From contig NZ_FNQY01000004.1 of the NCBI RefSeq assembly GCF_900107765.1, positions 124,001 through 188,000 of the forward strand: DNA of 64,000 nt, in the 5' to 3' direction. The notes below the pieces were generated by a model. It did not search any database. It was not told the DNA's origin and worked only from the letters and a program-made list of their open reading frames with translations. Made by a program: the position numbers and the translations under genes. Within the stretch, counting starts at the first letter, position 1. The number at the start of each line of letters is the position of its first letter. This document shows positions 8,182-37,274 of the stretch, one piece after another. The DNA is from Arachidicoccus rhizosphaerae. Its GTDB lineage: Bacteria; Bacteroidota; Bacteroidia; Chitinophagales; Chitinophagaceae.

Positions 8182-8230
8182 ACTAATTAATTTTTTATGT
8201 ACTGCATAACCATACATGACTAAAATAGAT

Positions 8231-14589: not shown

Positions 14590-14778
14590 ATGCTTGAGAA
14601 ACCCTCTTATATAAAAAAATATTGGCATATTATTTAAACGCTCATGTTGGAAAAGCAGCAGGAGCCGACAATGGAAGTCCCTGCCTGCTACAAAAATATA
14701 AAAAAACAGGCAGGATAAAGGCAGCCTTTCAGGTAATGATACCAATACCGGGATTCCGGCAAACAACAGACAACTACA

Positions 14779-15807: not shown

Positions 15808-15919
15808 AGTTACATCAATTCATTTTTTGTCAAATACCTGAAGGAGGCGATAATTCCAAAAATAATAAATATTTGTGGCTATTGGCGCATAAAAATAAAA
15901 CCGGCATATACCCGCAGCT

Positions 15920-20383: not shown

Positions 20384-22894
20384 ATGAAATACAAATACCA
20401 TAAAATACCCGTATCCGATCGCCTTTCTAATAGACAGGTCTTCGCAAAGCGGCACCTAATTGCCGGAGCAAGGCTCAGTCTCTGGCTATTGACAGGTCTA
20501 TGCCTAAGTTTAGTTGTCTCTGTTGACAAAGTATCGGCACAAAATAACCGGATGCCTATATTCTCCATTCAGAAAGACAATATCAGCTGGCCCCGGTTCA
20601 GCCTTAACGCGGCCGGATCCATGCCGCTGGGTGGCGGAGACATCGGGCTGAACGTCTGGACCGAACAGGGGGATATTTTATTTTATATGGCCAAAAGTGA
20701 CGCTTTTGATCAAAATAACACGTTATTAAAATTAGGCCGCATCCGTATCCATGTAAGCCCTAACCCGTTTGTTCATACCAGCTTCAATCAGAGCCTTCAT
20801 CTTCAGGATGGCAGTATTTACATAAAAGGCAGTGTGGATGGCCGGCCCGTGACGCTTCATCTCTGGGTGGATGTCCGCCATCCTGCTATTCACGGCAATC
20901 TAACCTATGACCATAAAGGACCAAGCAATCTTAATGCCTTGATTACCTATGAGAGCTGGCGCGATAAGGATCACACGGTTAAAGGCAAACAGAACAATCA
21001 GAATTCCTATAAATTCGGACCTCAGGGCATTATTCTGATGAAAAAGGATAGCATCAGTACGGGGTATGATCAGCAAACAGGGGGACGCATCCTTTTCTTT
21101 CATGCCAATGGTGACAAAACGGTATTTGATGTAACGGTCCATCAACAAAAACTGGACAGTGTTAAAAACGAGTTGTATGATCCGCTTAAAAACAGGATCT
21201 CCGGTGGCCTGCTGTGCGCACCGGAGTTTATGGCGCTGTCGCCCACTGCAGGCACTTACCTGTCCACACCCTATACAGGCTACAGACTTGGCACGAGAAA
21301 GCCGGTAGCGGGGTTTAGCTTCCATATACAACTCAGTTCAACGCAGACGCCTGACCTGACAGGCTGGGTTTCTCAATTAAAACAAAGCATCAGAACAGGC
21401 AGCCAGGTTTCACAGGACTGGGCCGTTACCAGGCAATGGTGGCAATCTTTTTGGCAAAGAAGTTTCATTGACATCAGTCCTGATTATAACACCGGTGACG
21501 ACAGTTCTCCTAAAAGGGCAAAGGACAGTTCCGGTTACCGCTATTTTACCATGGGTAGAAATTATCAGCTGTTCAGATATATGCTGGGGGCCAATGCCTA
21601 TGGCAAATTCCCCACAAAATTCAACGGCGGTTTATTTACATATGACCCGGTACTGGTAGACAGCACCTATCCTTTTACCCCGGACTTCAGAAACTGGGGG
21701 GGCGGGACTTTTACCGCCCAGAATCAACGTCTTGTTTATTTTCCAATGCTTAAAAGCGGAGACTTTGATTTACTGCAAAGCAGTTTTGATTTTTACAACA
21801 GACTCCTTAAAACAGCTGAACTAAGAAGCCTGATATACTGGCATCATAAAGGTGCAGCCTTTACGGAACAATTGGAAAACTTTGGCTTACCCAATCCAAG
21901 TGAATACAGCTGGAAACGTCCGCCGGGATATGATCCGGGCATGCAATACAACGCGTGGCTGGAATATGAATGGGATACGGTGCTGGAATTTTGTAAAATG
22001 ATGCTGGATGCCAGAGATTATAACAATACGGATATCCGTTCATATCTGCCCTTTATTAAGAGTTGTCTCAGCTTCTTTGATGCGCACTACCAGTATCTGG
22101 CTGAAAAAAGAGGGGCACGCACCCTGGATGGAAACGGCCATCTAATTCTCTATCCCGGCTCCGGCGCTGAAACCTATAAACTTGCTTATAATGCATCCTC
22201 TACCATTGCCGCACTGAAAACAATTACCGGTGAACTGCTGGAACTCCCTGATACTTTATTAGATAAAACAGACAGGGATTATGTAGCGGGGTTTCAAAAA
22301 AGAATACCACCACTGCCGCTGACCCGTATTAAAGGCAAGGAGGCCATAGCTCCTGCCATTACCTGGGCCAGAATTAATAATCAGGAATCTCCGCAACTCT
22401 ATCCGGTTTATCCGTGGGGTATCTACGGCGTGGGAAAGCCGGATCTGGATATCGCATTAAATACCTGGAATCTGGACACGAACGTCATTAAAAACAGAAG
22501 CTATATAGGCTGGAAACAGGATAATATTTTTGCAGCGAGATTAGGACTTGCCAGGCAGGCCTTTGATCTTACCGCGCTGAAATTAAAAGATGGCCCCAGG
22601 CGATTCCCTGCATTTTGGGGGCCGGGATTTGACTGGGTGCCGGATCATAACTGGGGCGGGTCTGCGATGATTGGATTACAGGAAATGCTGCTTCAGACGG
22701 CAGGAGACAGCATCATCCTTTTTGCGGCCTGGCCAAAAGACATTGATGTCCATTTCAAGTTACATGCAACCAGGCAGACGACCGTGGAGGCCTGGCTGAA
22801 AAACGGCAAACTATCTGCCTTAAAAGTATTACCTGCATATAGGCAAAAAGACATCATCAATTACCTGGATAAAAAACCTGCGGCTGGTCAGTAG
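20384..22894 (+). CDS. DUF5703 protein, GH95-like six-hairpin glycosidase candidate
   Basis: An 836-residue exported protein (signal peptide with core about residues 30-48, cleavage near VSAQ). The N-terminal part (about 55-300) is beta-rich with SMPLGGGDIGLNVWTEQGDILFYMAKSDAFDQ, the pattern of DUF5703 and of GH95-like N-domains. The middle and C-terminal part (about 380-800) has helical stretches and motifs such as LILYPGSGAETYKLAYNASSTIAAL and FWGPGFDWVPDHNWGGS, fitting an (alpha/alpha)6 barrel. The family is found beside glycoside hydrolases in Bacteroidota, but I know of no assigned activity. It stands near, but not in, the CAZyme operons and ends in a terminator shared with the convergent IclR gene. 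Confidence 0.7.
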   Translation: MKYKYHKIPVSDRLSNRQVFAKRHLIAGARLSLWLLTGLCLSLVVSVDKVSAQNNRMPIFSIQKDNISWPRFSLNAAGSMPLGGGDIGLNVWTEQGDILFYMAKSDAFDQNNTLLKLGRIRIHVSPNPFVHTSFNQSLHLQDGSIYIKGSVDGRPVTLHLWVDVRHPAIHGNLTYDHKGPSNLNALITYESWRDKDHTVKGKQNNQNSYKFGPQGIILMKKDSISTGYDQQTGGRILFFHANGDKTVFDVTVHQQKLDSVKNELYDPLKNRISGGLLCAPEFMALSPTAGTYLSTPYTGYRLGTRKPVAGFSFHIQLSSTQTPDLTGWVSQLKQSIRTGSQVSQDWAVTRQWWQSFWQRSFIDISPDYNTGDDSSPKRAKDSSGYRYFTMGRNYQLFRYMLGANAYGKFPTKFNGGLFTYDPVLVDSTYPFTPDFRNWGGGTFTAQNQRLVYFPMLKSGDFDLLQSSFDFYNRLLKTAELRSLIYWHHKGAAFTEQLENFGLPNPSEYSWKRPPGYDPGMQYNAWLEYEWDTVLEFCKMMLDARDYNNTDIRSYLPFIKSCLSFFDAHYQYLAEKRGARTLDGNGHLILYPGSGAETYKLAYNASSTIAALKTITGELLELPDTLLDKTDRDYVAGFQKRIPPLPLTRIKGKEAIAPAITWARINNQESPQLYPVYPWGIYGVGKPDLDIALNTWNLDTNVIKNRSYIGWKQDNIFAARLGLARQAFDLTALKLKDGPRRFPAFWGPGFDWVPDHNWGGSAMIGLQEMLLQTAGDSIILFAAWPKDIDVHFKLHATRQTTVEAWLKNGKLSALKVLPAYRQKDIINYLDKKPAAGQ

Positions 22895-22898: not shown

Positions 22899-22940
22899 AA
22901 AAAAGGGACTGCCTGCAGATGTAGGAAAATCAGCAGGCAG
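22899..22940 (-). terminator. Terminator of the IclR gene, with competing stems
   Basis: Between the convergent DUF5703 and IclR genes. On the minus strand an 8-base stem (CTGCCTGC at 22909-22916 with GCAGGCAG at 22933-22940) is followed by TCCC and six T (complement of 22899-22904). A second 8-base stem GGGACTGC/GCAGTCCC (22905-22912 with 22968-22975) shares the CTGC arm, so the two folds exclude each other. Confidence 0.65.
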
Positions 22941-22980
22941 CCTCAAAAAAATATCAGCACAGGATACGCAGTCCCAAAAA

Positions 22981-23787
22981 TCAGTTCTCTGCAAGAATTC
23001 TTTCTTCCAGACCCAGGTTCACAGAAATACGACGGGCCGTTTCTTTGGCTTTTTTAGCGATTTGTTCCAGACTTACTTCTTCTTTAAGCTGAACGGATAA
23101 TATGGCAATGGTCAGACAGGCGATGGCCCTGTCTCCATTCATTACCGGCACTGTAACATCCATAATTCCTTTGGCCAGGTCACTGCCGGTAATAAAATGA
23201 CCGTCTGCCCGAATGTCCTGTAGTGAGCTTAAAAACTTCTGTTGTTTTCTAAGCGGAAACTCATTGAAAAGATCATTTCGCTTTAGGAGTTCAAGCCTTT
23301 CATTTTCTTCCATATAGGCCAACAGTACCTTGCCTGAGGCAGTCAGCATGACAGGAAAGGTACTTCCTTCCTCAATAGACAGCGCAATAGGAACGGGACT
23401 TCTTGACTGAGAAACGACAATCAGTTTATCCTGATATAAAACCCCGAGATGGCAGGATTGTTTAATGCTATCAGCTAGATCATCCATTGGATAATGAGAG
23501 GCCCTTCTGATTTCATCAATGGGTGAGTGCCGGTGAGAGAGATTATATAATTTCAGGGATTGCTTATACTTTCCGGAGATTTCATCCCGCAGCAGATACC
23601 CTCGTTGCTCCAGACAGACCAGCATCCGGTAAATCTCACTGGGATTCTTATTAATGCCAAGAGCGATATCCGCCTGGGAGAGCGGCCGGCCTTCTTCAGA
23701 TATAAACTCCAGAATATCAAGCCCTTTTTCCAGGGCGGGGGCATGGTATTTCACTTCGGATTCCTCGACAGATTTCTTTTTTGCCAT
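22981..23787 (-). CDS. IclR-family transcriptional regulator
   Basis: A 268-residue regulator. Residues about 17-80 are the IclR winged helix (ALEKGLDILEFISEEGRPLSQADIALGINKNPSEIYRMLVCLEQRGYL). Residues about 90-262 form the GAF-like effector domain with the typical AIVLSIEEG-, LTASGKVLLAYM- and DVTVPVMN-like stretches. IclR proteins often control aromatic, sugar-acid or organic-acid catabolism and bind small carboxylates. It is divergent from the seven-gene operon starting at 23921, with 133 bases between them, so it very likely controls that operon and itself. IclR regulators are much less usual than AraC, GntR or hybrid two-component regulators in Bacteroidota glycan loci, which suggests an acidic effector here (inference). 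Confidence 0.92.
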   Translation of the reverse strand: MAKKKSVEESEVKYHAPALEKGLDILEFISEEGRPLSQADIALGINKNPSEIYRMLVCLEQRGYLLRDEISGKYKQSLKLYNLSHRHSPIDEIRRASHYPMDDLADSIKQSCHLGVLYQDKLIVVSQSRSPVPIALSIEEGSTFPVMLTASGKVLLAYMEENERLELLKRNDLFNEFPLRKQQKFLSSLQDIRADGHFITGSDLAKGIMDVTVPVMNGDRAIACLTIAILSVQLKEEVSLEQIAKKAKETARRISVNLGLEERILAEN

Positions 23788-23842
23788 ATGTTGGTTCTTG
23801 GTTTATATATATGAATTGTGAATTTACGCCATTCAACGGGAA

Positions 23843-23850
23843 CAAAAATA
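23843..23850 (-). promoter_or_regulatory. Candidate -7 element of the IclR gene
   Basis: The minus strand reads TATTTTTG, a full match to TAnnTTTG, 56 bases before the IclR start. No good -33 partner is seen. The region is AT-rich, so a chance match is possible. Confidence 0.35.
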
Positions 23851-23867
23851 ATAATTTTAAAGCCATT

Positions 23868-23900
23868 TTTGTTTATTTATGAATATTATATTTATATTTG
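23868..23900 (+). promoter_or_regulatory. Promoter of the seven-gene CoA-transferase operon, with palindrome
   Basis: TTTG (23868-23871), a 21-base spacer and TATATTTG (23893-23900) fit the Bacteroidota -33/-7 promoter. An imperfect 19-base palindrome TATGAATATTATATTTATA (23878-23896, one mismatched pair) fills the spacer and overlaps the -7. It is a plausible site for the divergent IclR protein. Transcription would begin around 23905, only about 15 bases before the TTG start of the first gene. Confidence 0.6.
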
Positions 23901-23920
23901 AATGACAAAAATTTGAAAAT

Positions 23921-25060
23921 TTGGGGCAGATTACTTTAAAAGGCATCACCTGGGATCATAGCAGGGGGTATACGCCGCTGGTCGCTACGGCACAGCGGTT
24001 CATGGAATTACATAAGGATATTGAGATCATCTGGCATAAGCGTAGCCTTCAGGACTTTGCAGATAAGCCCATAAGCAGCCTGGCTAAGGAGTATGATTTA
24101 CTGATTATCGATTACCCCTGGATAGGTTTCAGCGCCGAAAACCAGCAATTCTTACCACTTAATAAATATCTGCCTGAGCGCTTCTTACAGGATCAGTTAC
24201 AGGGAACAGTCGGAGCCTCTTATGAGAGCTACACGTATAAGGGACAGACCTGGGCCATTCCTATGGATGCAGCGACGCCGGTAGCCAGCTACCGGCCTGA
24301 TTGGTTTCAAAAAAATAACCGGCCGCTTCCTGCCACCTTTGACGATGTCCTGGAGCTGGCTGAACAAGGCCAGGTGATTTTGCCCGGCATCGCGGTAGAT
24401 ACTCTGATGAACTTTTATATGTTCTGCTGCACCCTGGGTGAAAACCCTTTTACATCACCGGGCAGACTCATAAGCGAGACCACGGGACTAAGGGCATTAT
24501 CTTTATATAAATCCCTGACGGACAAAACAGACCCGGTCTGTTTTGATCTTAACCCTATTAAAGTATACGAATTACTTAGCGCCTCTGACTCCTTCAGCTA
24601 TTGCCCCTTCGCATATGGTTATACCAATTATTCCAGACCGGGATACGCTGACCATATTTTACATTTTACAGATCTGGTCCGCTTAAATGACACACCACTC
24701 ATTTCTACCATTGGCGGAACAGGACTGGCCGTCTCTCAATATTGCCTGCACAGGACCAAGGCAATAGCGTATCTGCAATATACGACCAGCCCGAATATTC
24801 AGGAACACCTGTATTTTGACAACGGCGGTCAGCCGGCACATATGAAAGCCTGGAGTTCCGGGGCCAATAATGCAGCCACAAACCAGTTCTTTCAGCAAAC
24901 ACTACCCGCGCTTAAAAGAGCCTATTTGAGACCCAGATACAATGGATACATTCATTTTCAGGACCATGCAGGCGATATCATCAGGCAGTATTTGATAAGC
25001 GGCGGAAATCCCAAAAACGTATTAAACCAATTAGACCAACTTTTAAACCAACGCAACTGA
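23921..25060 (+). CDS. Solute-binding-protein-like protein without signal peptide (1)
   Basis: A 379-residue protein with the pattern of ABC sugar-binding proteins (SBP_bac_1 type). It shows an N-terminal strand LKGITWDHSRGYTPLVATAQRF, the inter-lobe segment YKGQTWAIPMDAATPVASYRPDWF (about residues 105-128) and PATFDDVLELAEQG soon after. Such proteins normally carry a signal peptide and serve an ABC importer. Here the frame opens at 23906 and contains no signal sequence, and no permease or ATPase gene is near, so the protein is predicted to be cytoplasmic. The only reasonable start is TTG at 23921; an ATG at 23902 is in another frame and ends after four codons. The stop overlaps the next ATG (TGATG), implying translational coupling with the CoA-transferase. 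Its role is unknown; binding a sugar-like substrate or intermediate is the natural guess. Confidence 0.75.
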   Translation: MGQITLKGITWDHSRGYTPLVATAQRFMELHKDIEIIWHKRSLQDFADKPISSLAKEYDLLIIDYPWIGFSAENQQFLPLNKYLPERFLQDQLQGTVGASYESYTYKGQTWAIPMDAATPVASYRPDWFQKNNRPLPATFDDVLELAEQGQVILPGIAVDTLMNFYMFCCTLGENPFTSPGRLISETTGLRALSLYKSLTDKTDPVCFDLNPIKVYELLSASDSFSYCPFAYGYTNYSRPGYADHILHFTDLVRLNDTPLISTIGGTGLAVSQYCLHRTKAIAYLQYTTSPNIQEHLYFDNGGQPAHMKAWSSGANNAATNQFFQQTLPALKRAYLRPRYNGYIHFQDHAGDIIRQYLISGGNPKNVLNQLDQLLNQRN

Positions 25061-26193
25061 TGGCACCATTAGAAAATCTGATTGTACTTGAATTTTGCCA
25101 ATATATGTCCGGTCCGTCAGCTGGTATGCGGATGGCGGATTTAGGTGCAACGGTTATTAAAATAGAAAGGCCGGGAACCGGGGAAGGCGGCAGACAGCTG
25201 GCCATCCGCAATCTGTTTGCCGGCAATAATAGCGTACTGTTCCATACCATCAACAGAAATAAACTTTCCTACAGTGCCAATCTGAAAGACCCTTCCGACC
25301 TAATCAAAATCAAAAAACTCATTGAAAAGGCGGATGTGCTGATCCATAATTTCAGGCCTGGCGTAATGGAAAAACTGGAATTAGGCTTCAGGGACTGTGC
25401 CCGGATAAATCCAAAGCTCATTTATGGGGAAATCAGCGGCTATGGCAAAGAGGGAAAATGGCAGGCAAAACCAGGTCAGGATCTCCTTTTACAATCTATA
25501 TCCGGACTCACCTGGTTATCTGGCAACAAGAATGATCCACCTGTCCCCTTCGGTCTTTCTATAGCTGATTATATGTGTGGCACACATCTGGTGCAGGGCA
25601 TTTTAGCGGCACTGATTGCCAGATCCAAAACAGGAAAAGGCGCCCTGATAGAAGTTAATTTACTTTCATCCCTTATTGATTTTCAGTTTGAAGTCATTAC
25701 CACGCATTTAAACGACAGCGGGAAGCTGCCTGATCGCGCTTTAAAAGGAAATGCGCACGCCTACCTGAGTGCACCATACGGCATTTATGCCACCAGCGAC
25801 GGACACCTGGCCATGGCCATGGAGGATTTAAAGTATCTGGCAGCGGCCTTGGAGCTGCCACAGATCATACCGCTGGCCGAAGACGGCTTCACCCATCGGG
25901 ATCAGATTATGGCTGCCATAGCCAGTGCGCTGGCCAGTGCGTCTACCAGACACTGGCTCAGTATATTCGAACCTGCTGACATATGGTGTGCCGAGGTACA
26001 GAATTATGATCAGTTCACCAGCCATCCGGGCTACCTTGCGATGAATCTTGAACAATCCATCACCCTTGCTGACGGACAGCAACTCAAAACCACCCGGTGC
26101 CCTATCCGCATTGACGGCCATATTTTCAGGAGCAGTAAACCAGGGCCGGAAGTCGGCGCTGACAACAGACAACTGGAACAAACACTCTTATAA
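25060..26193 (+). CDS. CaiB/BaiF (class III) CoA-transferase (1)
   Basis: A 377-residue class III CoA-transferase, a family that moves CoA between carboxylic acids. Family signatures are present: LIVLEFCQYMSGPSAGMRMADLGATVIKIERP at the N-terminus (in pieces of the usual pattern), ADVLIHNFRPGVMEKLEL (91-108), YGEISGYG (122-129) and PGQDLLLQ (138-145). Asp170 in GLSIADYMCG lies where the family has its catalytic aspartate, followed by GTHLVQGILAAL. It is translationally coupled to the solute-binding-like gene upstream and followed after 40 bases by a close paralogue. The donor and acceptor acids cannot be inferred. Members of this type work on formate/oxalate, carnitine, succinate/mesaconate and similar acids. 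Confidence 0.92.
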   Translation: MAPLENLIVLEFCQYMSGPSAGMRMADLGATVIKIERPGTGEGGRQLAIRNLFAGNNSVLFHTINRNKLSYSANLKDPSDLIKIKKLIEKADVLIHNFRPGVMEKLELGFRDCARINPKLIYGEISGYGKEGKWQAKPGQDLLLQSISGLTWLSGNKNDPPVPFGLSIADYMCGTHLVQGILAALIARSKTGKGALIEVNLLSSLIDFQFEVITTHLNDSGKLPDRALKGNAHAYLSAPYGIYATSDGHLAMAMEDLKYLAAALELPQIIPLAEDGFTHRDQIMAAIASALASASTRHWLSIFEPADIWCAEVQNYDQFTSHPGYLAMNLEQSITLADGQQLKTTRCPIRIDGHIFRSSKPGPEVGADNRQLEQTLL

Positions 26194-26233
26194 TTAAGAA
26201 TGCATATAAAAATGGATATTTAACCTGCAGCAC

Positions 26234-27409
26234 ATGAATAAACCTTTAGAAGATATTTTGGTAATTGACCTGAGTCAGTTTTTATCCGGCCCTTCCGCCA
26301 GTCTTAAACTGGCCGACCTCGGGGCCCGGGTCATAAAAATAGAAAGGCCGAAAACAGGGGATATCTCCAGACATATGTATATCTCCGACGTACAAATGAA
26401 CGGAGCTTCTTCTGTATTTCATGCCATCAATAGAAATAAAGAAAGTTACATAGCCGACCTAAAACGCCCGCAGGATGTTGCTAAGATTCTGGAACTGATC
26501 AAAAAAGCGGACATTGTCATGCATAATTTTCGTCCTGGCGTGATGGAAAGGCTGGGACTGGACTATACTACCATTCAAGCCATTCACCCAAATGTCATAT
26601 ACGGTGAAATTTCCGGGTACGGAACGGAAGGTCCCTGGAAAAACAAGCCCGGTCAGGACTTATTATTACAGGCCCTGACCGGGATGTGTTACTTAAGCGG
26701 CAATGCGGACATGGCCCCTGTGGCCATGGGCATCTCGCTGGTGGACATCGCAACAGGCGGTCATTTAGTGCAAGGCTTACTGGCCAGTCTGATCAGGCGC
26801 GGCGTCACCGGCAAGGGCGCCCTTGTCCAGGTCAGTATGCTGGAATCAGCCTGTGACCTGCAATTTGAATCGATAACCTGTTATTTAAATGACGGTCACC
26901 AGTTACCGGAACGCACCTTACAAAATAATGCAAATGCTTATCTGGGTGCTCCATACGGCATCTATAAAACCAAGGATGGTTACCTGGCCATAGCCATGAC
27001 GGCGGTGAACAAATTAGGAGAACTTATTAACTGCCAAAAATTAATTAATTACACCGATCCTGCAGGATGGTTTACGTATCGTGAACAAATAAAAGCTATC
27101 TTGGGTGCACATTTGAGTACCGAGTCTACCCATCATTGGCTGGCAATCCTTGAACCGGCAGATATCTGGTGTGCTCAGGTTCAAAGTTGGCGGGAATTAC
27201 TGGCAGATATCTCCTTAAAAGAGACGATTAAAACCCAAAGGGTTGTCATGCAGGATGGATACAGTTTTGAAACAACACGCTGTCCTATACTTATAAATGG
27301 ACAGCCAATGTTGTCTGAAAAAGGCACGCCTACTTTAGGTCAGGATAATGAACATATTGATGACACGCTACTCGCAGACTTAATAAAGGAGAAATCAGTG
27401 AATCATTAA
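26234..27409 (+). CDS. CaiB/BaiF (class III) CoA-transferase (2)
   Basis: A 391-residue paralogue of the preceding CoA-transferase; by eye roughly half of the positions are the same. The conserved blocks are LADLGARVIKIERP, VMHNFRPGVMERLGLDY, YGEISGYGTEGPW and PGQDLLLQALTG. Asp171 in GISLVDIATGG is the expected catalytic aspartate. Both paralogues share a C-terminal EPADIWCAQVQ/EPADIWCAEVQ motif and the ending ETTRCPI/KTTRCPI, so they belong to one subfamily. A tandem pair with two intact active sites suggests two CoA transfer steps or a hetero-oligomer (class III enzymes are interlocked dimers). The spacing to the next gene is 34 bases. Confidence 0.92.
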   Translation: MNKPLEDILVIDLSQFLSGPSASLKLADLGARVIKIERPKTGDISRHMYISDVQMNGASSVFHAINRNKESYIADLKRPQDVAKILELIKKADIVMHNFRPGVMERLGLDYTTIQAIHPNVIYGEISGYGTEGPWKNKPGQDLLLQALTGMCYLSGNADMAPVAMGISLVDIATGGHLVQGLLASLIRRGVTGKGALVQVSMLESACDLQFESITCYLNDGHQLPERTLQNNANAYLGAPYGIYKTKDGYLAIAMTAVNKLGELINCQKLINYTDPAGWFTYREQIKAILGAHLSTESTHHWLAILEPADIWCAQVQSWRELLADISLKETIKTQRVVMQDGYSFETTRCPILINGQPMLSEKGTPTLGQDNEHIDDTLLADLIKEKSVNH

Positions 27410-27443
27410 AATATTTAATAAATCAGACCCATTTTCAATCCTT

Positions 27444-28682
27444 ATGCAGACAGGTCAGTTCCATATTGCAATCAGAAAATTTGAACCATTTGAGCGATTC
27501 ATACAAGCAAGATGGCAGGATTTCTGCGCTGAATCAGGATGCAGACTTGAGCTATGTGCTGCAGCGATGGATCTCCCTGAGCTCCACCGTTCCCTGCTGA
27601 CAGAGAACGGACTGAAAAACGGCCATTGGGATATAGCCCTTATCAGCTCCGATTGGATTAAAGAGGCGATCGCAACAAAGGCAGTGCTTCCCATAGAGCC
27701 TTTGATTCAACAGGAAGATTATTTTACCCCGTGGCCCGCTTCATTACTCAGAAGCCAGCAATCCGGAAATAATCACTTCGCAGTCCCTTTCCATGACGGA
27801 CCGGAATGTCTTATCTACCGAAAGGACTTATTTGAGGATCCCAGGCATTGCAGCGGTTTTTTGGCGCAGTATGGCTATGTACTTGAACCGCCTAAAAACT
27901 GGGAGACTTTTTATGATATAGCCTGTTATTTTCAAAATAAAGAACCGGGGTTATGCGGTACTGCCCTGGCGGCTTATCCGGATGGTCATAATGCCGTATA
28001 TGATTTTTGTATACAGGCCTGGACAAGGGGGGCGGATTTCACTTCAGCCAATCCATCCATTAACCTGCAAAACCAGGGGATTATAGACGGTCTGCATTTT
28101 TACCGCAAACTCGCAAACAGCAGCCATGCGCTCCACAAAGACTCTTTCAATATGGATTCCGTCAAATTAGGAGCAGCATTTGCCGGCGGTGAACTTGCCA
28201 TGATGATCAACTGGTTTGGATTTGCCACTTATGCGGCCCAACTTGACAATAGTCCTGTTAAAGATAAAATAGGCGTAGCCCCTATCCCCCATCAGGTGGA
28301 CAAGCCTTCCGTATGCCCTAATTCTTATTGGATGTACTGCATCGCAAGCGGCTCTGCCAACAGCGCTGTGGCCATGGACTTCATCCAATTTGCCTCCCAA
28401 CCCAAATATGATATTGCCCTCACTTTAAATGGAGGCATTGGTTGCAGAAAATCTACCTGGCATGACCCGGAGGTCAATAGTCAGTTACCGTTTTTTAATC
28501 AGCTGGAAGCCATACACGAACTGGCCAGGGAATTACCCGACTGGCCCAACTGGCCGGCCATCGCACAAATTATTGATGAGGTGATGATACAAACCGGCAC
28601 CACAACCCAAGAAATAGAAAGTATCCTTTTTGCTGCACAACAAAAAATTGATCTGCTGCAAAGCACTCCGGCAGTAAATTAA
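27444..28682 (+). CDS. Solute-binding-protein-like protein without signal peptide (2)
   Basis: A 412-residue protein of the same general fold as the first solute-binding-like protein but clearly divergent from it. SBP-type patterns include WDIALISSDWIKEAIATKAVLPIEPLI (about residues 62-88), NHFAVPFHDGPECLIYRKDLFED (about 110-132), PPKNWETFYDIACYF, and GAAFAGGELAMMINWFG in the second lobe, where sugar-binding proteins typically read F..G.aAM...G. The upstream in-frame codons (back to the stop just before 27410) encode no hydrophobic signal, so export by Sec is not supported. It follows the second CoA-transferase by 34 bases. Conserved Trp, Asp and Asn residues typical of sugar stacking are present (NWETF, PDWPNWP). 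Function is unknown. Confidence 0.75.
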   Translation: MQTGQFHIAIRKFEPFERFIQARWQDFCAESGCRLELCAAAMDLPELHRSLLTENGLKNGHWDIALISSDWIKEAIATKAVLPIEPLIQQEDYFTPWPASLLRSQQSGNNHFAVPFHDGPECLIYRKDLFEDPRHCSGFLAQYGYVLEPPKNWETFYDIACYFQNKEPGLCGTALAAYPDGHNAVYDFCIQAWTRGADFTSANPSINLQNQGIIDGLHFYRKLANSSHALHKDSFNMDSVKLGAAFAGGELAMMINWFGFATYAAQLDNSPVKDKIGVAPIPHQVDKPSVCPNSYWMYCIASGSANSAVAMDFIQFASQPKYDIALTLNGGIGCRKSTWHDPEVNSQLPFFNQLEAIHELARELPDWPNWPAIAQIIDEVMIQTGTTTQEIESILFAAQQKIDLLQSTPAVN

Positions 28683-28711
28683 ATACCGGAATCTAAAAAC
28701 GAAACCACATA

Positions 28712-29818
28712 ATGGATAAATTAATTGACATCAGCAGTATTACCCGGGTACAGCTTCGCTATCCAAAGCCTGAGACGCCGGTCCCTATTATTATAATCGG
28801 AGCCGGTGGCATTGTCAGAGATGCCCATTTACCCGCTTATACGGAGGCGGGACTGGAAGTATTTGCCATTGTCAACCGAACCATCAGCAAAGCAAAAGCA
28901 CTGGCCGAAACCTTTAACGTGCCGCGCGTATTCGCTACCATACAGGAGGCCGTCAGCATTGCGCCCAAGGACGTCATTTATGACATGGCCCTTATGCCTG
29001 CCCAATACATGGAAATCTTAAAGCACCTGCCCGATGAATCAACGGTACTCATCCAAAAACCAATGGGGGAAACGCTGCAGGAAGCGCAAGAGCTACTGGC
29101 ACTCTGCAGAAAGAAACGACTGAAAGCAGCCATCAATTGTCAGTTGCGGTATGCGCCTTATGTGCATATTGCCCGCCAGATGATACAAAAAGGACTCCTG
29201 GGAGACATTTACGACATGGAAGTCAGACTCACCACCTATACGCCCTGGGAGATCTTCCCCCATGTGGCGGTCAACAAAAGACTTGAAATCCTTTATCATT
29301 CTATCCATTATATGGACCTGATCCGAAGTTTTCTTGGGGAACCTGATAGCATTATCAGCAAAACATTCGGGCATCCTGACAAACCCTTTTCTTCCACCAG
29401 GACCACCACGGTATTCTCTTATGGCAAAAATAAAAGAGCAGTTATCAACACCAACCATGACCATAACTTTGGCCCGGATCAGCAGGAAAGCTTTATCAAA
29501 TGGGAAGGCACCCAAGGTGTTATCAAGGCTAAAATGGGCCTGCTCCTGAATTACCCTAAAGGAACAAGTGACGCATTTGATTATTATCTGGCTAATGACC
29601 CAACAAAGGCCGGATGGCAAAAACTGAATATTCAGGAAAGCTGGTTCCCGGATGCCTTCAGAAATATCATGTTCGCCCTGCAAAGATTCAAAGAAGGTTC
29701 AGACAGCATATTAACCAATCACGTTGAGGATGTTTTTCATACGATGGAGTTGGTGGAAGCTGCCTACCAGTCCGATAAACTAGACGGCCACCATATCCCT
29801 ACAGGGAATATTATATAA
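28712..29818 (+). CDS. Gfo/Idh/MocA-family oxidoreductase in the CoA-transferase operon
   Basis: A 368-residue cytoplasmic NAD(P)-dependent oxidoreductase. The Rossmann glycine motif is PIIIIGAGGIVRDAHLPAY (residues 25-43). The EKP motif is altered to QKP (Q115, K116, P117), keeping the catalytic lysine, and HYMD (about residue 197) supplies the usual His/Asp. The N-terminus has about 20 extra residues (MDKLIDISSITRVQLRYPKP) before the first strand. It would oxidise a hydroxyl of a sugar or sugar acid, or reduce a keto group, and is the probable redox step of this operon. The spacing is 29 bases upstream and 25 bases downstream. Confidence 0.88.
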   Translation: MDKLIDISSITRVQLRYPKPETPVPIIIIGAGGIVRDAHLPAYTEAGLEVFAIVNRTISKAKALAETFNVPRVFATIQEAVSIAPKDVIYDMALMPAQYMEILKHLPDESTVLIQKPMGETLQEAQELLALCRKKRLKAAINCQLRYAPYVHIARQMIQKGLLGDIYDMEVRLTTYTPWEIFPHVAVNKRLEILYHSIHYMDLIRSFLGEPDSIISKTFGHPDKPFSSTRTTTVFSYGKNKRAVINTNHDHNFGPDQQESFIKWEGTQGVIKAKMGLLLNYPKGTSDAFDYYLANDPTKAGWQKLNIQESWFPDAFRNIMFALQRFKEGSDSILTNHVEDVFHTMELVEAAYQSDKLDGHHIPTGNII

Positions 29819-29843
29819 TTATTGATACAGAAAAATTCATCAG

Positions 29844-30293
29844 ATGCATATCCACCAACAATTCTATGAACAATATACATTAGGAGACTCCAGAACAAGC
29901 CTAGGCAGAACAATTACAGAAAGTGATATCGTTTTACACGCTGGTCAGACAGGTGATTTCTTCCCTCATCATATGGATGCTGAATGGTGTAAAACGCAGC
30001 CATTTAAACAAAGAATTGCACATGGCACTTTAATCTTTAGCATCGCCATTGGCCAGACGGCTACCCAGATTAATCCGGAAGCCTTCTCAAAGGGCTACGA
30101 CAGATTACGTTTTATAAAGCCCGTATTTATAGGTGACACCATCCGCACGAAAGTAACCATTACCGAAGCGGTATTGGATAAAAAACCGGGTTTTGGGAAA
30201 ATCGTCGAACATGTAGAAGTATTTAATCAACAGGATACGCTGGTGATGGTGTGCGACCATATCCTGCTGGCCAAACTACAATCCGGTGCATAA
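29844..30293 (+). CDS. MaoC-family (R)-enoyl-CoA hydratase/dehydratase
   Basis: A 149-residue single hot-dog-fold MaoC domain. The hydratase-2 catalytic pattern D-x4-H is present as [12 protein letters not shown], with Asp38 and His43. [12 protein letters not shown] and [13 protein letters not shown] follow as the central helix and the overhanging segment. Such enzymes add or remove water at an acyl-CoA double bond; relatives work with CoA-transferases on mesaconyl- or itaconyl-CoA and in polyhydroxyalkanoate supply. Together with the two CoA-transferases it implies that an acid in this pathway is activated to a CoA thioester and then hydrated or dehydrated. No citramalyl-CoA lyase (CitE/HpcH type) or thiolase gene is adjacent. 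Confidence 0.92.
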
Positions 30294-30320
30294 TTCCAGT
30301 AAAGTTTAAATAAGTAATCA

Positions 30321-31400
30321 ATGATGACACCCAACCCGATTGAGGGCATCGGCTTACATGCGATCGGAGCCACCTCCGCTTCCACCTGCTATTTACCTTT
30401 TCATAAAACTAAAAAATGGTCCTGGGTATCTTACTGGCTCATCCAGTCACTTTTTGCCTGGATTTTGACGCCATTAGCTTTAGCGTTACTGACGATTCCT
30501 CATTTTTTCGATGTGATTCACGAAGCTTCCGCCCAAACGCTCTGGCTAACCTTTTTATTCGGGGGGATGTATGGCTTCGGCGGCATGTCCTTCGGCTTTG
30601 CCACCCGCTATATTGGCTATTCCCTCACCTATGCCATCTCCATAGGTCTGTCAGCAGTACTGGGCACTCTGCTACCGCTTTTGCTGCACGGGACTTTAGG
30701 CACCTATTTTGGTGGGGAAGACGGACATATCATCGCCGTCGGTATGATCATTGCCATGATTGGCGTAGGATTATGCGGTGTGGCCGGATTTAAGAAAGAA
30801 CAGGAAATTAAATTATCACAGTCAGGCAGCCATATACACACAAAGCAGTTTAATATGCGTCTCGGCCTCTTGCTGGCAATCATAGCGGGTGTTCTGTCGG
30901 GTGTATTTAATATTGCCTTAGAATACGGGCAGCCCGTCTCTGATATTGCCGCACAAAAAGGTGCAGGCATATTTGAGGGGAATGCCAAACTCGTGATCGC
31001 AACCAGTGGATGTTTTGTGATCAACTTCATCTGGTTTACCATACTTGGCCTCCGAGAAAAACGATTCAAAGAGTTCAGCAGCAGCCATTACTTATCCAAA
31101 GAGAATAATCAGATAATACCGGATAAGGCCAGATTATGGAAGAACATATGCTGGTCCGCCTTTGGCGGCATTCTATGGTGTATGCAATTCTTTTTTTACG
31201 GACTGGGGCATGTCAAAATGGGGCATCTGCAATTTGCCAGCTGGGTCATCCATATGTCCATGCTGATTTTCTTTAGTTTTGTGGTAGGCATAGGCATGAA
31301 AGAATGGAAAAACGTCTCCGGAAAAACTTATAGTATTTTAATTATCGCCTTAATTACCCTGGCCGCCTCATTTATAATAATGAGTTATGCCGGCCTTTAG
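30321..31400 (+). CDS. rhaT: RhaT-type L-rhamnose/H+ symporter family protein
   Basis: A 359-residue inner-membrane protein of the RhaT (drug/metabolite transporter superfamily) family with about ten helices. It has the typical opening MTPNPIEGIGLHAIGATSASTCYLPFHKTKKWSWVS in pieces, GGMYGFGGMSFGFATRYIGYSLTYAISIGLSAVLGTLLPLL, and the late AFGGILWCMQFFFYGLGHVKMG. RhaT imports L-rhamnose with a proton. In Bacteroidota, paralogues may carry L-fucose, lyxose or other 6-deoxy sugars, so the substrate is inferred as a rhamnose-like monosaccharide. It is the last gene of the seven-gene operon (27 bases after MaoC) and is followed by a hairpin terminator. Its presence is the strongest hint that the operon handles a sugar. 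Confidence 0.9.
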   Translation: MMTPNPIEGIGLHAIGATSASTCYLPFHKTKKWSWVSYWLIQSLFAWILTPLALALLTIPHFFDVIHEASAQTLWLTFLFGGMYGFGGMSFGFATRYIGYSLTYAISIGLSAVLGTLLPLLLHGTLGTYFGGEDGHIIAVGMIIAMIGVGLCGVAGFKKEQEIKLSQSGSHIHTKQFNMRLGLLLAIIAGVLSGVFNIALEYGQPVSDIAAQKGAGIFEGNAKLVIATSGCFVINFIWFTILGLREKRFKEFSSSHYLSKENNQIIPDKARLWKNICWSAFGGILWCMQFFFYGLGHVKMGHLQFASWVIHMSMLIFFSFVVGIGMKEWKNVSGKTYSILIIALITLAASFIIMSYAGL

Positions 31401-31427
31401 ATAAACATTCGTTTTATCATTAAAAAC

Positions 31428-31480
31428 AAACAGATCTGATGGCTATATGTATAAAATACCGCCAGATCTGTTTATTTTTA
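31428..31480. terminator. Bidirectional terminator between rhaT and GH127 genes
   Basis: AAACAGATCT (31428-31437) pairs with AGATCTGTTT (31464-31473), and GGC/GCC continue the stem past a three-base bulge. T-rich sequence follows on both strands (ATTTTTA on plus, TTGTTTTTA on minus). It lies between convergent genes and can serve both. Confidence 0.75.
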
Positions 31481-31518
31481 AATCATCAGACATCTCCTTC
31501 AGCAGATTTTTGTCTATT

Positions 31519-33630
31519 CTATTTACCTGCCAGTGGCAACCAGACCTCCATATCGTCGCGGCCTCTGTTTTCCCAACCATAATATGGAATCATTCTGATT
31601 TTAACAGGCCTGGCCGCGCCTGCTGATAGCGGATAATAAAGCAAATCCTTACTGAGTTTCTGTGTATTTAATTGGGCAGTCGTTTCCAGCGCCACCAGTG
31701 TTTGAGGTCCGATTTTTTCTTTTACCGCAGTCCATTTGCAGTTTTTATCAATAGAGATATCCGTTATACCTACCTCTGCCGGTAAATCCTCAGATTCCAG
31801 GCAATAAACAACAGGACCTCTTTGTACCGCTACCTGCCCCCGGTTTGCCTCAACCATTGGGTTAGCTGCCATCAGTTTTACTTCCATGGGAAAATCGAGC
31901 TCAATTTTATCCCCTTTTTTCCAATATCTTGTAAGCGTCAGATAAGAACCGGGAAGAACCTCCTGGTCCACCTTTTGGCCATTTATTTTTACGGAGGCCC
32001 CATTGGCCCAGCCTGGAATCCTTAAATAAAGAGAATAGCTGCTTTTGGGCATGGCAGCAAGTGTCAATAAAATATTACCATCCCAGGGATAATCGGTGCT
32101 TTCATTAATAGAGATCCTTTCTCCTTTATCACTTACGGTTTCCAGCTGATTGGCTCCATACAAATGAATATATAGTCCCTGCTGATCCAGTCCGTACACA
32201 TAATCACTGGCTTCGGCAATGGTTCTGACTACATTTGGCGGACAACAAAAGGAATAGCCTATATAAGGATCTCTTGGCAGCTCCGACCAGCGTAAGGTAA
32301 ATGGCTGATGACGGTTATATGCCAAAGGATTGGCATATAAAAAAGTCTTTCCATCCAGACTAATCCCGGACAGGATACTGTTATATAAGGTTCTTTCCAA
32401 TACATCCGCATATTTCTCCTGACCCGTAATCTGCAACATGCGCCAATTCCATAACAGATTACCGATATTGGCGCAGGTCTCATCATGAGCCGTATAATTG
32501 GGTAGCTGGTAAGGTCGTCCATATGCCTGAGCCACCTGTTGAATCTCTTCGGGATGATAAGAAGTTCCGTCAGGCGAAACGCCGTCATATAAAGCGCCAC
32601 AGCCACCTGTAATATACATCTTGCGATAAACCACGTCTTTCCATATCGCGTCCAAAGGTTTAAACAAGGAACTATCTCCTGTTTCCAAAAAGACATCTGC
32701 AGCCCCTGCATATAAATAATTAGCCCTTACGGCATGGCCAACGGCCGTTCGCTGCTGCCTGAAAGGGATCCTGTCCTGATTCTGATCCGTGCCATTTGTC
32801 ACACCATCCCTGAGGTTCATTAGTTTTTTGGCCAGTTCCAGATACTTCTTATCACCAGTCGTTCTATAAAGCTCCACAACCCCCATATAATGGGCCGGGC
32901 AGATGGCACTTCTGGCAAGGGTGGGTGAAGAGTGATCATAATATTTTTCCAGAAACCCGGCCGCCTTTTGGGCCACATTAAGCAAACTGGTTTTCCCCGT
33001 GGCCCTGTAATAAATACAGGCCGTAGTCATTAAATGTCCCATATTATAGGCCTCAAAGCTCAAAGTGTCTCCAAAAACTTTTAAAGAATCGGGATGGAGC
33101 TTTGCGGTAATTTCTACCTGTGTACCTAAATAACCGTCCGGTCTTTGTGCCTTGGCCACTACCTGAATCACATCATCCATCAGTTTATCCAGTTTTGCAG
33201 ACCTGGTATGGGCATATACAGCAGCAGCGCCTTCCAGCCACTTTAAAAAATCGCCATCCATAAATGGAGGACCTACATGAATACCCGTATCCAGACCGGC
33301 TGCTATTTTAAAGTTTTTAAATCCATGGCTCAGGCTGTCGTTATTAAACAAATTCCACATATTGGGCACCATAGAGCTATCGCAGACTTCAAACCAGTCC
33401 GCCCAAAAACCATTTGTCCATTGAACCGACTGCATCGGAACCCCATGCATCCTGGCATACGGGCTGTGTCTGGTATCCGTAACGCCCGCATTTTGAAAAG
33501 GAGTTCCCGGCTCTCTCACACTGTTTTGTGCTTTTGAATAAAAACAGGATAAAAATCCGGCCATCAATAAGCAGGCCTTCCATGGCGTAAAGTAGTGATA
33601 TTTTAAACGACCGCTGGTTTTCATACGCAT
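31519..33630 (-). CDS. GH127 beta-L-arabinofuranosidase-family protein
   Basis: A 703-residue exported enzyme (signal peptide, cleavage near SKAQ at residue 35) of GH127 (formerly DUF1680), an (alpha/alpha)6-barrel family. The zinc-thiolate site of the founding enzyme HypBA1 is conserved: Glu384 and Cys386 in HDETCANIG, and Cys462-Cys463 in FCCPPN, the first cysteine of that pair being the expected nucleophile. Activities known in the family are beta-L-arabinofuranosidase and, in RG-II degradation, removal of other unusual residues from side chains. The gene precedes nothing on its strand and follows the GH106 gene by 53 bases, so the two form a bicistron. It is divergent in function from, but adjacent to, the IclR-controlled operon, with a shared terminator between. 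Confidence 0.92.
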   Translation of the reverse strand: MRMKTSGRLKYHYFTPWKACLLMAGFLSCFYSKAQNSVREPGTPFQNAGVTDTRHSPYARMHGVPMQSVQWTNGFWADWFEVCDSSMVPNMWNLFNNDSLSHGFKNFKIAAGLDTGIHVGPPFMDGDFLKWLEGAAAVYAHTRSAKLDKLMDDVIQVVAKAQRPDGYLGTQVEITAKLHPDSLKVFGDTLSFEAYNMGHLMTTACIYYRATGKTSLLNVAQKAAGFLEKYYDHSSPTLARSAICPAHYMGVVELYRTTGDKKYLELAKKLMNLRDGVTNGTDQNQDRIPFRQQRTAVGHAVRANYLYAGAADVFLETGDSSLFKPLDAIWKDVVYRKMYITGGCGALYDGVSPDGTSYHPEEIQQVAQAYGRPYQLPNYTAHDETCANIGNLLWNWRMLQITGQEKYADVLERTLYNSILSGISLDGKTFLYANPLAYNRHQPFTLRWSELPRDPYIGYSFCCPPNVVRTIAEASDYVYGLDQQGLYIHLYGANQLETVSDKGERISINESTDYPWDGNILLTLAAMPKSSYSLYLRIPGWANGASVKINGQKVDQEVLPGSYLTLTRYWKKGDKIELDFPMEVKLMAANPMVEANRGQVAVQRGPVVYCLESEDLPAEVGITDISIDKNCKWTAVKEKIGPQTLVALETTAQLNTQKLSKDLLYYPLSAGAARPVKIRMIPYYGWENRGRDDMEVWLPLAGK

Positions 33631-36600: not shown

Positions 36601-37274
36601 TTACTGGAGAAATTAATGGTATTATCAGCATTGATTAATACACCGGGATCCTGTCCTTTGACACTCGATGTCACGACGGGCTTTACTTGCTCCGGTGCCC
36701 CTTCTGCTCCTTTTTGAGCCGGGAAGGCATAAACAGCAATATCCTGATAATATCCGGCTTTAATATCCTTTGATTTTGGCAATGTAAGCTGAACTGTTTT
36801 GCCGCCGGTAATACTCGTATCTGACCAGACTATTCTCTGCATCGATAAATCCGGTGTGATCCACGGACCTCCTGAAGTTGCAAAACCGTCTCCTATATGC
36901 ATCCCCAGTTTTAAACCAAGGCTATCCGCGATAGTAAAAGCATATTTCACCATTTGCCACCATATGGGTGTCAACTGAACAACAGGCGGATCAATCAGTA
37001 AGGAATCAGGTTTCCCCTTTATACAAACCAAATAAGCGCCTGCAATTCCTTGCTGTTTCATGGCTACCAGATCAGCTCGGATGCCTGCTTTAGAAACGCT
37101 GGCCTCCATCCAATACCAAAGCACCCAGGGCTTAGCTTCATTAAATCCGGCAACGTCCGGTGCCTGCCTTTTAATGTTCTGGCCTTTTGCTTCATGAATA
37201 AGTAAAAGGCTTACAAACAGCAGGCAAAAAACCGCGGTTCTTAGCGGAAGAAAATTATTGGTATTATCTGACAT
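33684..37274 (-). CDS. GH106-family alpha-L-rhamnosidase
   Basis: A 1196-residue exported protein (signal peptide MSDNTNNFLPLRTAVFCLLF..., cleavage near AKGQ). The N-terminal half matches the GH106 TIM-barrel pattern, with KPWVLWYWMEASVSKAGIRADL, MKQQGIAGAYLVCI and LGLKLGMHIGDGFATSGGPWI. Further on are RVFYMDSWECGSQNW and a C-terminal beta-sandwich with ILLDLGQVQNIASVLLNGKDCGVAW and NILEIKVANTWANRI, which is a galactose-binding-like module. GH106 enzymes remove alpha-L-rhamnose from rhamnogalacturonan side chains by inversion. It is the first gene of the GH106-GH127 pair. A TACTTTTG -7 candidate on the minus strand lies at 37444-37451. Confidence 0.9.
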   Translation of the reverse strand: MSDNTNNFLPLRTAVFCLLFVSLLLIHEAKGQNIKRQAPDVAGFNEAKPWVLWYWMEASVSKAGIRADLVAMKQQGIAGAYLVCIKGKPDSLLIDPPVVQLTPIWWQMVKYAFTIADSLGLKLGMHIGDGFATSGGPWITPDLSMQRIVWSDTSITGGKTVQLTLPKSKDIKAGYYQDIAVYAFPAQKGAEGAPEQVKPVVTSSVKGQDPGVLINADNTINFSSKEPCWIDFAYKEPFTCRTIEIRTKGITFQAKRLRIFISDNGRDYRFYTQLEPARSGWQDYSLPVYYSIAAVSSKYFRFVYDPAGTEPGSEDLDDAKWSPSLKLTGLILSSRARIPHFLGKSGAIWRIAKRADTALIPDRDCITVDSVINITSFLQSDGKLKWRPPPGKWTILRMGHSSTGSINSTAGGAKGLESDKFNPKAVKLQYDSWFGQAIKKLGPELAGNVLRVFYMDSWECGSQNWSPVFRQEFLKRRGYDPIQYLPVMAGYPIGSASLSEKFLYDVRLTISELLNENYFGTLQQLAHQGGYQIAAEATAPVMVGDGMRHFDKVDFPMGEFWLRSPTHDKPNDILDAISGAHIYGKSVVQSEAFTELRNKWDEYPGMLKALQDHHYAMGINRLVFHVFGENPWLDRAPGMTLGGVGLYFQRNQTWWPMVRGWMDYTRRTQALLQQGTPVTDIAVFNGMEIPSRSVLPDRLIKTLPGLFGAGRILAEKSRLENKGNPLQHIPEKVTSSAGITTAKDWVDPLNGYKYDAVNADALVRLAHMNAQGGVLFGGDNSYSVLIVPDLEKMDPDSPFMTLDVARALLRLTRAGATLIMDRYPRYLSGLEAKGRSVDSLHKVIEELLGSASFFKAHRDKDYIRSVGKGRVFLGDYGQPDLSLLDISKDFKATDATGRQTKGIAWNHRKINPQMIGERLASANPDVPDLKKLGVSDIYFVSNQSTEEKLISVSLRVSGKRPLLYNAVTGTLTNASEWSTNKQRTELTLRLPVSGSLFILLKDVDNEKNASGKAESVTGLSNDPSGVQDLKGPWQVQFDPAYGGPVRPVAFDTLYDWRTSILDSIRYYSGIASYKMRFNWSSGKAISGAVNQRILLDLGQVQNIASVLLNGKDCGVAWTMPYQLDITKNLKEGENILEIKVANTWANRILRDEALPVNERQTWTTCPFNLQGDTLLSAGLLGPVQLIPVNKDRAVDN

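Follow-up and report, generated by a model that had tools for sequence, protein, structure and literature searches.

A conserved operon of Bacteroidota that appears to direct an unusual plant or algal sugar through coenzyme A esters

A seven-gene operon and its predicted proteins

We analysed a 64,000-nucleotide stretch of the Arachidicoccus rhizosphaerae genome (contig NZ_FNQY01000004.1, positions 124,001 to 188,000; hereafter the window, whose own coordinates are used throughout), in which seven plus-strand genes form an operon at 23921-31400. The conserved gene set appears to serve the breakdown of an unusual sugar from plants or algae, by way of an acid, a coenzyme A (CoA) ester and the removal of water. 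All seven open reading frames (ORFs) of a preliminary description, made from the sequence letters, are present as it placed them. They encode two relatives of transporter solute-binding proteins (SBPs), namely SBP1 (23921-25060; Pfam SBP_bac_1, 35.8 bits) and SBP2 (27444-28682; a sugar-binding-protein fold, Pfam SBP_bac_1, 73.9 bits); two class III CoA-transferases, CoAT1 (25060-26193; Pfam CoA_transf_3, 308.8 bits) and CoAT2 (26234-27409; 313.4 bits); a Gfo/Idh/MocA-family dehydrogenase (28712-29818; Pfam GFO_IDH_MocA, 46.4 bits); a MaoC/PaaZ-C hot-dog hydratase (29844-30293; Pfam MaoC_dehydratas, 77.9 bits); and a RhaT-family symporter (30321-31400; Pfam RhaT, 186 bits). The scores of all seven exceed the Pfam gathering scores.

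The genes are separated by -1, 40, 34, 29, 25 and 27 nt, the first value being a 1-nt overlap of SBP1 with CoAT1, in agreement with the single overlap and the gaps of 25-40 nt originally described. SBP1 starts with TTG at 23921; an in-frame stop lies a few codons upstream, with no alternative start in between. The divergent IclR-family regulator, also correctly described before, occupies 22981-23787 on the minus strand (Pfam IclR_C, 87.1 bits; HTH_IclR, 46.8 bits), and L124 and L125 (loci are cited by L numbers), which belong to the same genus, have copies in the corresponding position (91% and 70% identical). The 133-nt divergent gap holds a plus-strand match (23868-23900, TTTG-N21-TATATTTG) to the Bacteroidota-type promoter consensus; the chance of a match in that gap is 0.0096 by base shuffling, and the pattern matches twice on the plus strand of the whole window. 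Generic sigma-70 promoter-like matches were set aside (26 found, 16.8 expected). Behind RhaT, a 118-nt gap between convergent genes contains a hairpin (31421-31480, unstranded; fold -20 kcal/mol, z -6.55) that is a likely terminator; it was not listed by a generic terminator scan, whose 8 matches against 8.8 expected amount to no more than chance. No Rfam family reached its gathering score within 22900-31600. We infer that the seven genes form one transcript.

The activities of these proteins are predicted from family membership and key residues. The residues pointed out in the preliminary description are intact and conserved among relatives: D170 in 77/77 CoAT1 rows and D171 in 79/79 CoAT2 rows (excluding rows whose best hit was the other CoAT gene, six loci having given the same gene twice), the MaoC pair D38 (73/73) and H43 (72/73), and the Gfo/Idh lysine, K116, which is invariant in 71/71 rows, as is H196. 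Both CoA-transferases match PF02515 over positions 1-366 of 366 (cut-off 23.3 bits) and are the only matches found in the 4.87-Mb genome. CoAT1 D170 aligns with the catalytic aspartate of SUGCT and formyl-CoA transferase. A tree of 55 CoA-transferases separates CoAT1 and CoAT2 into two well-separated groups, with the alphaproteobacterial CoAT as a third, the exception being one Ammoniphilus gene that was entered under both names. No named CoA-transferase equivalog (formyl-, succinyl-mesaconate, carnitine or glutarate) was matched, the best score being 191.7 bits against a cut-off of 750. In six Hymenobacter loci (L062, L070, L077, L093, L100 and L104), CoAT1 and CoAT2 make up a single ORF of about 790-835 aa, possibly a natural fusion.

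MaoC aligns with 4ffu (E 1e-53), with the Asp/His pair in register, and D38/H43 also align with 1q6w and PaaZ. No equivalog model scored above cut-off for the Gfo/Idh protein. The earlier assignment of a RhaT-type symporter stands at the level of the Pfam family and does not extend to the RhaT equivalogs of NCBIfam, all of which are below cut-off (best 300.5 against 468 bits).

Conservation of the operon and exchange of its genes

An alignment of 12 SBP1 relatives served as the query for a scan of GTDB species genomes, which confirmed at least 541 SBP1 relatives; none was confirmed in viral contigs. The best 80 loci were taken for operon counts. SBP1, CoAT1, CoAT2, SBP2, Gfo/Idh and MaoC stand in the same order on one strand in 68 of the 80, a proportion that differs from that of a random sample because the loci were selected on SBP1 similarity. 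A strict recount by best hits gives 65; in the remaining three (L047, L057 and L072), the best hit of the CoAT1 query is the CoAT2 gene, and the gene tables display both genes. Across the 65 loci, identity to the window proteins ranges from 41% (SBP2) to 82% (MaoC). Judged by gene order, the operon is a conserved module and no local accident, and the possibility, raised in the preliminary description, that these genes are only locally adjacent did not hold up in this neighbourhood search.

The 80 loci belong mainly to Flavobacterium, Pedobacter, Hymenobacter, Mucilaginibacter, Sphingobacterium and their relatives, with single loci outside Bacteroidota in Acidobacteriota (L083), Bacillota (L091) and Vibrio (L092). 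More widely, SBP1 relatives accompanied by CoA-transferase genes occur in Bacteroidota, Pseudomonadota, Bacillota, Actinomycetota and Acidobacteriota. The Bacillota locus, from Ammoniphilus, encodes a short-chain dehydrogenase/reductase (SDR), an SMP-30 gluconolactonase, an AMP-binding acyl-CoA synthetase, a CoAT, SBP1, a crotonase, MaoC and an RraA-like aldolase. A pair of CoAT and SBP1 genes is also found in Nitratireductor, Martelella and Labrenzia, near IclR, amidohydrolase, sugar ATP-binding cassette (ABC) transporter, Gfo/Idh and MaoC genes, together with genes annotated as L-fuconate dehydratase and fumarylacetoacetate hydrolase-family protein (FAH); in Martelella, Gfo/Idh, CoAT, SBP1 and MaoC form a single four-gene run. 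The amidohydrolase and FAH are absent from the stretch seen in Shinella, and fuconate dehydratase was not seen in Thalassospira. Sinorhizobium K101 has the run CoAT-SBP1-crotonase.

A second kind of cluster, which combines a CoA-transferase, a crotonase, an SDR, an aldose epimerase and a sugar ABC transporter, was found in Martelella (L113, 17779-30910) and in Sinorhizobium K101 (L119, 8795-17414), the latter with an SBP1 relative; it probably represents the same chemistry applied to another sugar. In Mucilaginibacter (L082, L040), and also in L052, L071 and L080, the operon is followed by genes for an OiaX-type RuBisCO-like decarboxylase, an OiaK-type kinase and an Asp/Glu racemase. The OiaX/OiaK-like pair scores below the NCBIfam equivalog cut-offs; this set of genes is suggestive of a branch by way of a 3-oxo acid.

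The strongest clue to function comes from genes that replace each other. Of the 80 loci, 72 have a MaoC gene and 8 have a gene for a crotonase-type enoyl-CoA hydratase; both occur together at the Ammoniphilus locus only, and one locus has neither. Two unrelated families of CoA-ester hydratases are thus trading places. Among the operons with Gfo/Idh and MaoC, SBP2 is present in 74 and an amidohydrolase related to L-fucono-1,5-lactonase in 19 distinct ones, never both on SBP1's strand (Fisher P 3e-17, ignoring common descent). This table comprises 113 loci with one duplicate (L086 = L126, counted once), takes in only genes at most 9 kb away and on SBP1's strand, and excludes L119, where Gfo/Idh occurs with a crotonase. 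Neither gene was counted in L114, L115 and L120: the SBP2 match in L114 and L115 is an ABC importer's own binding protein, and the lactonase relative lies on the opposite strand in L114 and L120. Scored with the fuconolactonase model (cut-off 400), two in-operon amidohydrolases reached 153.5 and 159.3 bits. Operons of the lactonase form predominate in the window's own family (18/20 relatives). In six crotonase operons, an aldehyde dehydrogenase is present and Gfo/Idh, SBP2 and the lactonase are all missing. The transporter is of the FucP type in 66 of the 80 loci and RhaT in 5, with both in one locus and neither in ten; the one FucP-type protein scored reached 356 bits (cut-off 280). Each of these exchanges would preserve one step, either from sugar to acid or from a CoA ester to the same ester plus or minus water.

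Transport folds that look cytoplasmic and a proposed pathway

The AlphaFold (AF2) models of SBP1 and SBP2 have mean predicted local distance difference test values of 94.8 and 90.8. Over its full length, the SBP1 model matches binding proteins of ABC importers, namely MalE3 (6dtq; Z 38.2, rmsd 2.6 over 366 aligned), 1eu8 (Z 37.8) and SmoF (7ofy; Z 37.6), and the SBP2 model matches 1eu8 in Foldseek with a template modelling (TM) score of 0.86 at 23% identity (TM 0.82-0.86 over SBP structures). Both proteins are thus confidently predicted to be full sugar-binding folds. Unlike importer SBPs, they have neither a signal peptide nor a permease or ATPase at hand, and their genes sit with CoA-transferase genes. 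An export-signal-like N-terminal stretch was found in 0/93 SBP1 relatives and 0/71 SBP2 relatives by a hydrophobicity test, the sole test applied, which was positive for 13 of 14 SBPs annotated as exported (the start of the remaining one may be misplaced). The conserved part of SBP1 and SBP2 starts at about the first strand. Both proteins look cytoplasmic, which is the operon's strangest feature and one that the preliminary description passed over.

In the gene tables examined, SBP1 relatives are annotated as extracellular or ABC-transporter binding proteins. They could be ordinary proteins of transport whose export signal has disappeared or escaped correct annotation, the remains of a decayed ABC importer joined by chance to a carboxylic-acid operon, as the folds and the Pfam SBP families would allow. 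The lack of a signal-like stretch in both sets of relatives, the absence of an ABC permease or ATPase among the seven genes, and the strong conservation and fixed order over divergent genomes make this explanation most improbable. The invariant SBP1 residues W11, H13 and R15, D64 and P66, and D116 lie at or just past the ends of the predicted strands 4-11, 60-64 and 113-116, and loops at such strand ends line the ligand cleft in the SBP fold. The SBP1 gene directly adjoins a CoAT gene in the loci seen from Bacteroidota and Bacillota and in most of the alphaproteobacterial ones.

The reading that we favour, with a probability of about one half, is that the operon encodes a CoA-dependent pathway for sugar acids, which runs in the cytoplasm and receives its substrate through a symporter of the rhamnose/fucose type. 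RhaT, or a FucP-type transporter elsewhere, would import a 6-deoxy-type L-sugar freed from pectin, and the Gfo/Idh protein would oxidise its C1 to give a lactone, which would be opened or handled by the amidohydrolase in some clades and, where the operon has SBP2, with SBP2 occupying the slot. CoAT1 and CoAT2, with SBP1 as a sugar-binding partner, would then place CoA on the sugar acid through the catalytic aspartate; MaoC (or crotonase) would add or remove water at C2-C3 of the thioester; and a CoA-transferase would move CoA from the product to a fresh substrate, in the manner of CaiB/CaiD. The released keto-deoxy acid would pass to clade-specific cleavage by an FAH hydrolase, an RraA-like aldolase or, in Mucilaginibacter, OiaX/OiaK-like enzymes, and IclR may sense a pathway intermediate. 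We infer the order and chemistry of these steps, including the choice between hydration and dehydration and the carboxylate that bears CoA.

Several observations weigh against this reading. The SBP1-CoAT partnership is a predicted contact drawn from gene adjacency; in Streptomyces and Jannaschia, SBP1 is near a CoAT gene yet not adjacent to it, and in Microvirga L118 no CoAT was found in the 25-kb stretch that contains the SBP1 relative. An opposite-strand lactonase relative accompanies 23 of the 74 SBP2 loci (22 of Flavobacterium type, with a divergent fucose-dehydrogenase-type cluster, and L048), so the presence of SBP2 does not imply a cell free of lactonase. All association statistics were computed without regard to phylogeny. 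Standard sugar routes coexist with the operon: this genome's FucI (cluster L147) scores 1044 bits (cut-off 775), and RhaI-like genes are present in 33/33 SBP1-bearing genomes of the window's own family against 62/162 others. In Flavobacteriaceae, SBP1 shows no association with fuconate dehydratase (3/20 genomes with SBP1, 22/199 without), and 24 of the 59 genomes positive for fucose dehydrogenase (FucDH) carry neither. Relatives of the UxaA dehydratase occur in 31/31 genomes searched. Finally, four alphaproteobacterial clusters hold fuconate dehydratase together with CoAT/MaoC, so that MaoC is no plain substitute for that enzyme.

The part played by SBP1 and SBP2 can be read in different ways. 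SBPs of ABC importers may have been taken into the cytoplasm to serve as enzyme parts in a CoA-dependent sugar-acid route, SBP1 as the sugar-recognising subunit of an aldonic-acid CoA-transferase and SBP2 as a fold that replaces the lactonase; we regard this as unlikely, its odds being lowered by the 23 SBP2 loci with an opposite-strand lactonase relative. Those loci speak for another possibility, namely that both proteins act outside catalysis, as regulators or by binding and thus buffering a reactive sugar lactone or acid, with the CoA route unchanged, for which the full sugar-binding folds and the adjacent IclR gene also argue. The direct junction of SBP1 with CoAT, and the exchange of SBP2 for an enzyme inside the operon, better fit catalysis or a catalytic complex, so that we consider a buffering role somewhat doubtful. 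In Microvirga, the SBP1 relative (L118, 11998-13170; 32% identity) stands beside mannonate dehydratases, a gluconolactonase and an SDR, and SBP1 may have roles that do not involve CoA.

Fucose, rhamnose and pectin sugars as candidate substrates

The pathway inferred in the preliminary description, in which a rhamnose-like sugar or sugar acid is imported, oxidised, activated with CoA and hydrated or dehydrated, stands as far as the conserved unit, the sugar symporter and the families for oxidation, CoA transfer and hydration are concerned. Plain L-rhamnose or L-fucose is unlikely as the sole substrate here, because the genome has RhaI-type, FucI and oxidative fucose clusters. The last (L146, G000:C16:66000-85900; 9291-16047) encodes a FucP-like transporter, an SDR, an FAH hydrolase, a lactonase and FucDH, and adjoins a gene for a UxaA/galactarate-dehydratase-family protein, which is a candidate for the fuconate dehydratase. 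Inside the cluster, an ORF of 119 aa matches the GH141/rhaM reference. The RhaI-type L-rhamnose cluster (L148, G000:C27:394000-413900; 7376-13494) has its own RhaT paralog, 31% identical to the operon RhaT, and in L125 a similar cluster lies directly upstream of the DUF5703 gene (described below) and the operon. Because this genome keeps standard rhamnose and fucose routes and its SBP1-bearing relatives have RhaI-like genes, the operon is no replacement for these routes. The idea that it is the family's only L-rhamnose route, RhaA being found in 1/195 genomes, was ruled out by the RhaI-type genes in 33/33, all of which score below the RhaI model's own cut-off. One weak SBP1 and one weak FAH match were removed from that sample, and FucI was counted from 90 bits upwards.

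In Flavobacterium, genes for a fucose-dehydrogenase-type SDR, a lactonase, an alcohol dehydrogenase and mostly an FAH lie divergently beside the operon; in L049, FucDH scores 356 bits (cut-off 300), the lactonase 258 (400) and FAH 366 (500). In L137 (G080), SDR, FAH, FucP, lactonase and FucDH genes stand directly upstream on the same strand. FucDH was detected in 15/20 Flavobacteriaceae genomes with SBP1 and 44/199 without (P 3e-6), the thresholds of that sample being at least 200 bits for SBP1 (one weak match removed) and more than 300 bits for the dehydratase and FAH. A close fuconate dehydratase was found in only 1 of 24 Flavobacterium genomes with the operon, the others having no match or remote ones that do not exceed 79 bits; 21 of the 24 have the FucDH-type cluster at the operon locus. 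The clusters at these loci and the scarcity of a close fuconate dehydratase are what one would expect of a bypass, in which CoAT and MaoC carry out the aldonate dehydration of fuconate or rhamnonate dehydratase and an SDR and FAH finish the route, whose end products are pyruvate and lactate. Such a bypass is improbable in view of the UxaA-type dehydratase, found in every genome searched and beside this genome's own fucose cluster, of the four alphaproteobacterial clusters that carry both systems, and of the 24/59 FucDH genomes with neither. The UxaA-type genes and the genomes with neither also weaken the simpler notion that CoAT/MaoC merely fills in for a missing fuconate dehydratase.

Overall, the context of the operon points to L-fucose-like sugars, with rhamnosidases, GH141-type proteins and pectin genes nearby in relatives. 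In Flavobacterium L038, a GH141-type protein (1164-3671) has a C-terminal L-rhamnose-mutarotase domain (rhaM). An assignment of the pSymB ABC transporter of this region in S. meliloti to L-fucose proved unsupported: PMC3454389 names a chromosomal protein as the high-affinity binder of L-fucose.

In the window, the operon lies within a polysaccharide utilization locus (PUL). Upstream, a DUF5703-domain protein is encoded on the plus strand (20384-22894; Pfam, 334.8 bits); the corresponding gene is upstream of SBP1 in L028, L035 and L067 and upstream of IclR in L124 and L125. Downstream, on the minus strand, lie genes for a GH127 aceric acid hydrolase of rhamnogalacturonan II (RG-II) (31519-33630; NCBIfam AcerHdlse, 1030 bits, cut-off 950) and a GH106 alpha-L-rhamnosidase (33684-37274; Pfam Glyco_hydro_106, 514 bits). 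By the AcerHdlse score, an RG-II-specific hydrolase stands next to the operon. An RG-II-like hydrolase set extends over 11968-14766 and 33684-63937, mostly as a single minus-strand run, and comprises GH2s, the GH106, three rhamnosidase-type (GH78-like) proteins, a GH141-type protein, a BNR-repeat protein, a DUF3826 protein, an SSS symporter (51262-52926) and a further Gfo/Idh protein (52886-53986). The match of the protein at 44775-45980 to the GlucurArabfur model (539 bits, below the cut-off of 1800) is confined to the initial part of that model, which corresponds to GH137.

L-Aceric acid is 3-C-carboxy-5-deoxy-L-xylose, a deoxy sugar acid that would suit RhaT and a CoA-transferase. The operon might be an aceric acid pathway, in which C1 oxidation gives a branched dicarboxylate that CoAT activates and MaoC hydrates or dehydrates in an itaconate- or citramalate-like manner. 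The above-cut-off hydrolase adjoining the operon in the window, in L125 (1061 bits) and in L130 (1125 bits) argues for it, as do the GH106, rhamnosidase-type and GH141 proteins and the partial GlucurArabfur match of the window PUL. Against it, the hydrolase adjoins the operon in just 3/21 own-family loci, the window included, and marine Bacteroidota, Vibrio and rhizobia, for which RG-II is no obvious food, also have SBP1 relatives; an aceric acid pathway is quite unlikely. RG-II contains L-galactose, L-rhamnose, L-fucose and L-aceric acid (PMC6353982), and in this window L-rhamnose and RG-II sugars such as aceric acid or L-galactose are equally likely substrates.

Relation to known systems and significance

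No published description of the operon was found among open-access papers. The oxidative L-fucose/L-rhamnose pathway resembles the proposed route in its sugar symporter or ABC importer and its lactone step, and in Flavobacterium, L137 and several alphaproteobacteria its genes adjoin the same cluster or form part of it. FucDH, fuconate dehydratase and the FAH diketo-acid hydrolase are absent from 23921-31400, and the oxidative route is not known to use CoA, a CoA-transferase, MaoC or an SBP. The carnitine cycle of CaiB/CaiD pairs a class III CoA-transferase with a CoA-ester (de)hydratase and recycles CoA between substrate and product. It differs in its non-sugar substrate, and the operon differs in having MaoC as the hydratase and in its SBPs; CoAT1 and CoAT2 score 68 and 70 bits against the carnitine CoA-transferase model (cut-off 413). 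Itaconate and methylaspartate-cycle systems combine a CoA-transferase and a MaoC hydratase for branched C5 dicarboxylates. The operon proteins score far under the cut-offs of the corresponding NCBIfam models (Scnl_mescCoAtase 162 and 171 against 700 bits; RipB/Ich 38 against 340), and no lyase family was identified in the seven proteins.

The preliminary description knew of no pathway joining CoA-transferase and MaoC to the uptake of such sugars. Deoxyribonate oxidation does link sugar acids to CoA (PMC6365646), with a glyceryl-CoA step described in PMC9007349. It is the nearest sugar-acid/CoA pathway that we met, sharing with the proposed route the sequence from sugar to aldonic acid to CoA ester. 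That route reportedly uses a beta-keto-acid cleavage enzyme, a family absent from the seven operon proteins.

The at least 541 SBP1 relatives are widespread and, in the gene tables examined, carry the names of transport proteins, a misleading label when carbohydrate uptake is annotated. Should either SBP prove to be an enzyme or part of one, a transport fold would have been converted to metabolism. The operon's parts are ordinary soluble proteins, and the question can be tested directly. If the proposed route is real, sugar acids gain a CoA-dependent route besides the enolase-type and UxaA-type dehydratases, and degraders of pectin and algal polysaccharides would hold it beside their hydrolases.

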